Under the pieces are notes generated by a model. The model worked only from the letters and a program-made list of their open reading frames with translations. It did not search any database and had not been told where the DNA came from. From the IMG/VR virus record IMGVR_UViG_3300025759_000560, positions 1 through 27,114 of that record: a stretch of 27,114 nucleotides of DNA; one strand, given 5' to 3'. Of the stretch, positions 22,799 to 25,014 are shown one piece after another; position 1 is the first letter of the stretch, and the number at the start of each line of letters is the position of its first letter. The DNA comes from a virus. The position numbers and the translations under genes were made by a program.

Positions 22799-23383
22799 AT
22801 GTCAAACTTATTTAAAAACTTAGAAATCGAAGCATTTAGAGCAGGTATTACTCCTAGAACACAAGAGTCTAGGGAGTGGTTTCGTAAACGCTTAAGTCGT
22901 ATTCGTAGAGTAAATCGCAATGACATCATGAGGGATGATTCATTAAAGCTTGTCAATAGGCAGCTCATTGGCTCTATGCAGATGTTTTTCTACGATCCGA
23001 AGCATAAAGAGACTTTACCGTATTACGATGCATTTCCATTGGTTATTGTGATTGGTCCAGCCGAAGGTGGCTTTCTAGGATTGAACTTGCATTATCTTCC
23101 CCCAGTACTCAGAGCAAAGTTCCTAGATGCCTTGATGGACGTGACAACCAACACTAAGTACAATGACAGTACAAAGTTTGATGTTACATATGACTTACTT
23201 AAGAGAACAGCCAAGTTCAAGCACTTCAAGCCTTGTGTTAAACATTACCTGAACAAACAAGTGAGAAGTAGATTTGCAAGAATACCTGCACCTGAGTGGG
23301 AGATCGCTACATTTCTACCGACTGCATCATGGCAAAAAGCGAGTGGTTCTCAAGTATACAAAGATTCTAGAAGGATGATTTAA
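22799..23383 (+). CDS. Conserved T4-like phage protein, 194 aa, unknown role
   Basis: 194 residues, basic. Residues 1-45 are helical and Arg-rich ('RTQESREWFRKRLSRIRRVN'). The core 'MQMFFYDPKHKETLPYYDAF' (60-79), 'PLVIVIGPAEGGFLGLNLHY' and 'LPPVLRAKFLDAL' is a motif set I know from proteins of marine T4-like phages that lie among tail genes, usually annotated only as structural or hypothetical. No enzyme motif is visible. It sits between gp4 and the gp54-like gene, with which it shares a TAATG overlap, so it is probably a baseplate hub or tail protein. T4 gp28 (a hub protein of about 177 aa from the same T4 neighbourhood) is a possible counterpart, but I cannot show this. No ribosome site can be seen before the ATG. 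Confidence 0.75.
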   Translation: MSNLFKNLEIEAFRAGITPRTQESREWFRKRLSRIRRVNRNDIMRDDSLKLVNRQLIGSMQMFFYDPKHKETLPYYDAFPLVIVIGPAEGGFLGLNLHYLPPVLRAKFLDALMDVTTNTKYNDSTKFDVTYDLLKRTAKFKHFKPCVKHYLNKQVRSRFARIPAPEWEIATFLPTASWQKASGSQVYKDSRRMI

Positions 23384-24102
23384 TGTCTAGTATTGATACA
23401 ATGAAAAGTCTTATCTCTAGAAAAGATGGTATAGCACGTCAAAATGTTTTCAGAGTAAAGCTTCCTTCCCTTCCAGGTGCTACAATGGAAGAAGTCAATC
23501 TACTTTGCAAAGACGTTGTAATGCCAGGGAGACAAGTTCTAACCAATGAACGTAGGATTGGTATGAGAACTCAAAAGGTTCCTTATGGTTATGGCATAAG
23601 TGACGTGCCGTTGACGTTCCATGTTTTAAATGACTATGGTATCAGAAAATACTTTGAGGTGTGGCAAAACCTTGCAGTGAACCAGTCTGACCATTCTGTG
23701 GGCTATCTCAAAGGCAAAGAAGGATATGGTAAGCAGGTTATCATCGAACAACTTAAGAAGGGTATTGGTTTGCCAGTGTATCAAACTCCACTTGGTATTC
23801 CTAAGCTACCTTCAGAAATACAAAACAGATTACCCAAGTTCGGTCCAATCGACTTGGCTCAGGGTCAACTTGATCTTAACTATGTGACTAATGATGATGT
23901 GATTTATTCATGTACACTCATAGACGCATTCCCAACAACAATGAATGATATTCAACTAAATAACCAACCTGATGGTGTTGTCGAACTGAATGTGCAACTC
24001 TCATATACAAACTGGTATGCTAATGAAGTAGAGTTAGCCAGTACAACTGAGAAGTTTATTCAAACTCAAATCGGAACAGCATTAGGGAGAATATTTAACT
24101 AA
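23383..24102 (+). CDS. 54: gp54-like baseplate tail tube initiator
   Basis: 239 residues with a tail-tube fold: 'RQNVFRVKLPSLPGATMEEV' (19-38), 'LLCKDVVMPGRQVLTNERRI', 'VPLTFHVLNDYGIRKYFEVW', and the last strands 'IYSCTLIDAFPTTMNDIQLN' and 'VELNVQLSYTNWYANE'. This is shared by T4 gp19 (tube) and gp54 (tube initiator). I prefer gp54 because a helical C-terminal extension follows ('STTEKFIQTQIGTALGRIF'), as in T4 gp54, because there is an insertion of about 45 residues in the middle, and because it lies with hub genes rather than with the sheath or tube genes. The ATG overlaps the upstream stop (TAATG). gp19 remains possible. Confidence 0.65.
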   Translation: MSSIDTMKSLISRKDGIARQNVFRVKLPSLPGATMEEVNLLCKDVVMPGRQVLTNERRIGMRTQKVPYGYGISDVPLTFHVLNDYGIRKYFEVWQNLAVNQSDHSVGYLKGKEGYGKQVIIEQLKKGIGLPVYQTPLGIPKLPSEIQNRLPKFGPIDLAQGQLDLNYVTNDDVIYSCTLIDAFPTTMNDIQLNNQPDGVVELNVQLSYTNWYANEVELASTTEKFIQTQIGTALGRIFN

Positions 24103-24115
24103 AGGATGAAATGAA

Positions 24116-24823
24116 ATGGCGTTACCAAAGCTAAATGATAAACCAAAGTATGATCTTGTAATACCATCTACACAACAGAATGTACGGTTTAGACCATATC
24201 TAGTGAAAGAAGAAAAGGTTCTGATGCTTGCTCTTGAAAGTCAGGATCAGACACAAATCTTCCAAGCGATTGCTGATACTATCGTTGCATGTGTGGATGA
24301 ACCTATTGATAAAAAAACGCTGACAAGTTTTGACATTGAATATATGTTTGTTAACATTAGATCAAAATCTGTCGGTGAGAATATTAAACTGACACCTCAG
24401 TGTACACAATGCGAAACTGAAAATGAAATCTCTGTGGTTTTAAATGATATCAAAGCTGACATGTCTGATGTAGATTCTGTTATTGTATTGAACGATGATA
24501 TTAGTATTAAGATGAAGTATCCATCATATATGGACCTTGTCGGTGGTGATATCTTTATGAGTGAGTCTACAACAGAACAAACATTTAATATGATTTCAAA
24601 ATGTATTGAATCGGTGTTGACAGAAGATGAGATTATTTCATTTAAAGATGAAACTCCACAAGATCAAATGGACTTCATCGAATCTCTGTCCACATCACAG
24701 TTTGATGATATTCGAGTGTTCATCGAAGCCATGCCACAGGTAAGCTATGATGCGTCATTTGAATGTACGAGTTGTAATGCTAATAATGAGTTGAAGTTGA
24801 GAGGAATGAACGATTTTTTTTAG
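24116..24823 (+). CDS. 26: gp26, baseplate hub assembly protein (unshifted product)
   Basis: 235 residues (T4 gp26 about 208). It belongs to the T4_baseplate (gp26) family: 'RFRPYLVKEEKVLMLALESQ' (25-44) near the start and a long helical C-terminal half. Two CxxC pairs, C96/C99 ('PQCTQCETENE') and C217/C220 ('FECTSCNANNE'), could bind one zinc ion. gp26 is needed for hub assembly in T4 but is not abundant in the virion, and it acts like a tail-assembly chaperone. AGGA precedes the start. The last codons are GAT TTT TTT TAG, where a T8 run makes a -1 slippery site (see separate entries). The tape-measure gene follows closely, as chaperone genes do in other phages. Confidence 0.85.
   Translation: MALPKLNDKPKYDLVIPSTQQNVRFRPYLVKEEKVLMLALESQDQTQIFQAIADTIVACVDEPIDKKTLTSFDIEYMFVNIRSKSVGENIKLTPQCTQCETENEISVVLNDIKADMSDVDSVIVLNDDISIKMKYPSYMDLVGGDIFMSESTTEQTFNMISKCIESVLTEDEIISFKDETPQDQMDFIESLSTSQFDDIRVFIEAMPQVSYDASFECTSCNANNELKLRGMNDFF
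24814..24820 (+). promoter_or_regulatory. Candidate -1 ribosomal frameshift site at the end of gp26
   Basis: Slippery heptamer T TTT TTT in the gp26 frame, directly before the TAG stop (24821-24823). AGAGGA at 24800-24805, 8 nt upstream, is placed like the Shine-Dalgarno stimulator of dnaX-type -1 frameshifts. No strong downstream hairpin is seen; only a 4-bp TAAC-TTG-GTTA stem follows. Confidence 0.7.
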
Positions 24824-25014
24824 TATCTCTTTCTCATGATAACTTGGTTAACTATTATAATGTAAACTTTCAACTGATACAAAACCATCATTATTCTCTT
24901 GATGAAATAGAAAGTATGATACCTTGGGAAAGAGAAATATACTTACAAATGCTTGTTGATCAGATCAGAGAACAGCAAGAGGAAGCTGAAAGGCAAAGGA
25001 TGAGAAATGGCTGA
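24820..25014 (+). CDS. gp26 -1 frameshift extension (gp51-position domain)
   Basis: In the -1 frame the ribosome would read TTA GTA TCT onward from 24820 for 64 codons to TGA at 25012-25014, giving a 299-residue gp26 fusion. The extension reads 'HHYSLDEIESMIPWEREIYL' and then a Gln/Glu/Arg-rich helix, a conserved-looking segment. The -1 frame is open only from 24790, and before the slippery run it has no ATG, GTG or TTG start. The first usable codon is a TTG 24 nt downstream of TTA, with no ribosome site, and the first ATG lies mid-domain. It ends 8 nt inside the tape-measure gene. In T4 gene 51, another hub-assembly gene, follows gene 26, so the extension could be its counterpart; this is inference from position. 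Confidence 0.72.
   Translation, partial: LVSLSHDNLVNYYNVNFQLIQNHHYSLDEIESMIPWEREIYLQMLVDQIREQQEEAERQRMRNG

Follow-up and report, generated by a model that had tools for sequence, protein, structure and literature searches.

The G-T frameshift of tail assembly chaperone genes is widely conserved, with T4 being an exception (review PMC5009743), and for the T4 proteins gp26 and gp51 a part in hub assembly is listed, with an unclear mode of action (PMC3004832). According to PMC10885494 and PMC12846349, gp26 and gp51 were identified as tail assembly chaperones of T4-like phages by Vladimirov, Gautam and Davidson (Virology 2022, 566:9-15). PMC12846349 attributes to this study poly-T slippery sequences in the short-chaperone gene, and PMC10885494, citing the same study, describes some T4-like phages in which a short gene is accompanied by a longer fusion gene in place of frameshifting. 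As far as these accounts of the 2022 study go, the frameshift is already known in principle from long-tailed phages, T4-like phages included.

The window analysed here is the whole stretch of 27,114 nucleotides of the virus record IMGVR_UViG_3300025759_000560, a T4-like marine phage. It contains a gp26-like gene at whose end, judged from the sequence, -1 programmed ribosomal frameshifting very probably takes place. The features of this locus are as follows.

23383-24102, plus strand: tail tube-like gene upstream of gp26 (phrog_45 tail tube, E 1e-31)
24116-24823, plus strand: gp26-like gene with a zero-frame product of 235 aa (PF12322 T4_baseplate, E 6e-58; phrog_150 baseplate hub, E 3e-61)
24800-24805, plus strand: AGAGGA, a Shine-Dalgarno (SD)-like stimulator which lies 8 nt before the heptamer
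24814-24820, plus strand: slippery heptamer T_TTT_TTT in the zero-frame register, within GAT TTT TTT TAG
24820-25014, plus strand: -1 frame extension, 64 codons and TGA, predicted T-like domain at the C-terminus of the fusion
24844-25014, plus strand: mechanically called TTG open reading frame of 56 aa within the extension, unlikely as a gene start
24116-25014, plus strand: predicted frameshift product gp26-gp51C, 299 aa
25007-26809, plus strand: downstream gene of 600 aa in the position of the tape measure gene

The last codons of the gp26-like gene are ATG AAC GAT TTT TTT TAG with the stop codon TAG at 24821-24823, and the heptamer which the original prediction had seen directly before this stop was indeed found there. 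It is part of a run of eight T (24814-24821). Among the zero-frame heptamers of the type X_XXY_YYZ in the 20 window genes examined, it is the sole one which opens a long -1 frame (64 codons, as against 19 for the second longest). The frame is open from 24820 to 25011, contains SLDEIESMIPWEREIYL and ends with TGA at 25012-25014; the nearest upstream stop in the -1 frame lies 34 nt before the gp26 stop. The frameshift signal at the gp26 end exceeds chance, the decisive point being its conservation in relatives. Besides, the T run is the single T8 or A8 run in the whole window, where 4.2 such runs are expected from shuffled sequences, as if they were avoided elsewhere.

Relatives were collected by their gp26 protein, the heptamer not being a selection criterion, in two sets of 299 and 72 evaluable loci (371 in all), of which the first was dereplicated at 80% amino-acid identity to 140 clusters. 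The viral contigs were searched with single proteins; those of D528 and K575 gave no matches. A zero-frame T_TTT_TTN and, in the -1 frame, the same domain were present in 368 of the 371 loci (297/299 in the first and 71/72 in the second set), and after dereplication of the first set the heptamer was found in 138 of the 140 clusters; the clusters are related by descent and these counts carry no formal probability. The 72nd locus of the second set (L333) proved to be an apparent exception only, being a contig with a gp26 frame broken upstream in which the heptamer is still present. In all 138 clusters the P-site codon is TTT (75% in the rest of these genes), preceded by a codon ending in T. The heptamer ends in C in 90 clusters, in T in 36, in A in 11 and in G in one. 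The A-site codon (24818-24820 in the window) is TTC in these 90 clusters, though TTT makes up 75% of the Phe codons in these genes; this preference perhaps adjusts how often the slip occurs or prevents slippage during transcription. The zero-frame stop follows the heptamer after 0 codons in 35, 1 codon in 89, 2 codons in 1, 3 codons in 2 and 8 codons in 11 clusters. The 8-codon group comprises the Pelagibacter phage Mosig and its relatives, in which the heptamer is kept in place and the stop is shifted downstream. In these phages the conserved part of the extension begins (ALSHDS) where the zero frame is still open, and these residues are encoded upstream of the stop.

The frameshift of dnaX has a slippery heptamer with an upstream SD-like stimulator, and AGAGGA had been predicted to act as a stimulator of this type. 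This is corroborated by the relatives: an SD-like site with a value of ≤ -4 kcal/mol is located approximately 9-18 nt before the heptamer in 78% of the 138 dereplicated clusters, but only in 10% at control positions. Since synonymous codon choice at the site is biased towards GAG for Glu (66% vs 26% background), GTG for Val (64% vs 12%) and TTG or CTG for Leu (57% vs 27%), the site is not merely a by-product of the Leu-Glu-Gly motif. The SD-like stimulator is under selection at synonymous sites. A conserved downstream RNA structure was not found by RNAalifold, so that the set of stimulators is minimal, which is a point against the frameshift; single-sequence z-scores were mildly low with a mean of -0.96.

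A profile comparison of the 64 residues with gp51, which the original prediction had proposed as a check, gave a match to phrog_634 "baseplate hub assembly catalyst" (= gp51) with an E value of 2e-23. The extension also matches positions 236-277 of phrog_150, indicating that the phrog_150 profile includes fused members. In 113 non-overlapping pairs of close relatives, 1017 synonymous but only 261 non-synonymous single changes were counted in the -1 frame, which amounts to a dN/dS-like value of 0.058; the corresponding values for the other two frames were 1.0 and 3.1. These findings show that the extension evolves as a protein in the -1 frame only. Further, in 95 of the 138 clusters the stretch from the preceding stop in the -1 frame up to codon 5 of the extension is free of ATG, GTG and TTG. 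In the window, the first possible start is the TTG at 24844, which lies inside the conserved domain, is not kept as a start codon in relatives and has an SD score of 0.6 kcal/mol, compared to about -4.7 kcal/mol for gp26 and for the tail tube-like and the downstream gene. Both an open -1 frame lacking a convincing start and a slippery run conserved in relatives, in which the -1 frame has no consistent start, had been predicted and were borne out.

This bears on the possibility that the extension is a separate small gene, a reduced gp51, which ribosomes translate after reinitiating behind the gp26 stop or by starting at an internal TTG or GTG, as annotated in many cyanophages. It is annotated as a separate gene in S-PM2, S-ShM2 and phiM9, and some loci, a minority, have a GTG or ATG which overlaps the stop. 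There are also other ARRANGEMENTS: two isolates, Vibrio D528 (L090:4715-4880) and Pseudomonas Cygsa01 (L092:4736-4911), have no heptamer but a TAATG stop-start overlap, which allows the extension to begin at the stop codon itself. However, the codon at the stop overlap in the window is GTA, which is not a start codon, the TTG at 24844 is not preceded by an SD sequence and most clusters are startless. In Aeh1 the first in-frame start of the extension is found at +50, inside the domain, and in the Mosig group the position of the conserved extension residues upstream of the stop excludes reinitiation after the stop as their source. Moreover, reinitiation leaves the invariant T_TTT_TT and the upstream SD sequence unexplained. 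Relatives with a separate start, which had been named beforehand as evidence against a frameshift, thus do exist, but make up a minority, in most of which the heptamer is retained; for the window, we regard a separate gene as very unlikely.

Even less probable is that RNA polymerase slips on the T8 run and adds a base, so that the fusion would be made from an edited mRNA. Transcriptional slippage in bacteria becomes noticeable near 8 T, which is the length of the run in the window, but 6 T are too short for efficient slippage, and in 102 of the 138 clusters (last base C, A or G) there are only 6 T in a row. The prevalence of TTC in the A site, despite TTT being the common Phe codon elsewhere, speaks against polymerase slippage as well, and the selection for the SD-like site and the codon register agree with slippage by the ribosome. 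A single-base change in the T run would also fuse the two frames if a decayed gene or a sequencing error had split one long gp51-like open reading frame, but the same split is found at the same site in > 360 loci and many isolate genomes and is under purifying selection; this conservation refutes decay or error, to which we give practically no weight. Programmed -1 ribosomal frameshifting is supported as a whole, and those checks on the prediction which could be run and might have disproved it did not do so.

The genes 26 and 51 of T4 adjoin on opposite strands. Both gp26 and gp51 match PF12322 and they match each other with an E value of about 5e-6; by this sequence similarity they are considered paralogues. 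T4 gp26 (208 aa, ending with ...RGLKEFFELL) ends at the position of the slip site, and T4 gp51 (249 aa) aligns end to end with the predicted fusion, through the junction, with 23% identity over 266 columns (E 5e-12). A profile of the fusion scores T4 gp26 at 8e-26. Therefore, the link to gp51 made in the original prediction held insofar as the 64 residues match gp51, but not the statement that the extension sits where T4 carries the separate gene 51: the extension corresponds to the C-terminus of gp51 only, and gene 51 lies on the opposite strand from gene 26. It is the whole 299-aa fusion which corresponds to T4 gp51, and the zero-frame gp26 to T4 gp26, rather than gene 51 having been moved. 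By this comparison, T4 has separate genes for the short and the long chaperone, and the window phage would make both from one, as in lambda G/GT. The Klebsiella phage phi1_146002 (L101:3001-4294) has a long gp51-like and a short gp26-like gene as well, but in tandem on one strand, unlike T4. In 20 complete records, two PF12322 copies were found in T4 and phi1_146002 and one in each of the other 18. Since two copies occur only together with separate short and long genes, the single copy in 18 of the 20 records was counted in favour of the frameshift. The window itself is a 27-kb fragment, and the absence of a second full-length gp51 refers to the complete genomes of relatives. The sites, their conservation, the coding constraint on the -1 frame and the homology are direct observations.

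A structure model of gp26 (69 sequences, pLDDT 88) strongly matched predicted gp26-like proteins. In the PDB, the match with the highest probability was the HK97 tail assembly chaperone (2ob9), albeit a weak one (Foldseek E 0.85, probability 0.66, 63 aligned columns). The extension was modelled as three helices with a pLDDT of 86, for which a PDB match was not found, and a search by sequence gave no credible related solved structure. Matches of the extension to Stealth_CR2 were weak and were not trusted. A placement in the wider G/GT superfamily by the predicted fold is suggestive only.

The downstream gene starts with an ATG at 25007 and overlaps the end of the extension. Its position and its size (482 to 689 aa in relatives) suggest that it is the tape measure gene. 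No homology of the product to T4 gp29 or to the tape measure of Cr30 was found, and the tape measure of the original prediction is a candidate by position and size. Pfam and PHROGs gave no match to the 600-aa protein beyond a weak EF-hand-like one near residues 480-506 (E 0.007), which is below the cut-off, and thus no recognised family.

Based on these data, we propose the following model. For most ribosomes, translation would end at the TAG (24821-24823) with the 235-aa gp26-like protein as the product. When both the P site and the A site hold UUU, a minority would slip back by one base on U_UUU_UUU, probably slowed by pairing of the SD-like sequence with the 16S rRNA. After the slip, translation would continue with UUA GUA UCU and lead to the 299-aa protein, in which the 64 residues added form a predicted helical domain with homology to the C-terminal part of T4 gp51. 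The predicted fusion reads ...RGMNDFF-LVSLSHDNLVNYYNVNFQLIQNHHYSLDEIESMIPWEREIYLQMLVDQ..., with the junction ...GMNDFFLVSLSHDNLVNYY. The slip frequency is presumably low. By analogy to lambda, the 235-aa product would be the short tail assembly chaperone with a role like gpG, and the 299-aa fusion the long one with a role like gpGT; the short form would coat the tape measure and the long form would recruit tube subunits. It is from this analogy that we infer the rate of the frameshift, the ratio of the two forms and their binding partners.

The signal is replaced or doubled in several lineages. In addition to D528 and Cygsa01 with the TAATG overlap alone, both the heptamer and a stop-start overlap are present in phiM9, Vibrio K575 and 1.081.O, Stenotrophomonas YB07, Caulobacter Cr30, EniLVp02 and many IMG/VR loci; the (TAA or TGA)TG overlap in phiM9, K575, Cr30 and many IMG/VR loci could also yield a free C-terminal domain, which is a point against the frameshift. 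Sullivan et al. (2010), in their comparison as it concerns gp51, read the extension as a shortened or missing gp51 and reported Aeh1 to be without gp51. Aeh1 (L394:2772-2950) has the heptamer T_TTT_TTC and an unannotated -1 extension of 57 codons, and by its sequence the "missing" gp51 is best read as the frameshift extension. The extension is also unannotated in ACG-2014e, DSL-LC03 and S-WAM1. This amounts to a widespread annotation fault, the extension being called a tiny separate gene or left unannotated in many marine phage genomes. Taken together, we consider it likely that frameshifting on T_TTT_TTN is the ancestral and prevailing route to two tail chaperones in the T4 superfamily, that T4 and its enterobacterial kin replaced it with a gene duplication (gp26 short, gp51 long) and D528 and Cygsa01 with the TAATG overlap, that phages bearing both signals are living intermediates, and that what was taken for a "reduced" gp51 in cyanophages and a "missing" one in Aeh1 is in both cases a frameshift extension that went unrecognised.

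One scheme fits these phages: cyanophages, pelagiphages, Aeh1-like, large Vibrio and rhizobial phages would make the short and the long chaperone from a single gene with slippage, and T4 from a pair of paralogues. The predicted link of the T4 hub chaperones to the general tail-chaperone frameshift system fits as well but is not novel, since it was, by the accounts of the 2022 study, already published for T4-like phages; for specialists aware of that paper, the result is confirming more than surprising. What may be added here is the size of the comparison, the selected SD-like site, the stop-shifted Mosig group, the lineages which replace or double the signal, and the explanation for Aeh1.

In comparison with known systems, the locus resembles E. 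coli dnaX in having a slippery heptamer with an upstream SD-like stimulator, but there is no conserved downstream hairpin in the phage and the shift lengthens the product instead of shortening it. In another phage group, a poly-T site with the motif GTTTTT is likewise conserved close to where the short gene ends, and the -1 frame is open across all relatives, the motif being T_TTT_TTN in the present locus. With lambda G/GT, to which it is likened by gene arrangement, the locus would share a short protein and, made less often by -1 slippage, a version with a longer C-terminus, both encoded directly before the place where the tape measure gene is expected, but the slippery sequence in the window phage is T_TTT_TTN. 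The closest likeness is to the gp26/gp51 system of T4-like phages, with the same protein family and the same pair of a short and a long form, for which T4 uses two paralogous genes on opposite strands and the window phage one gene and a -1 shift.
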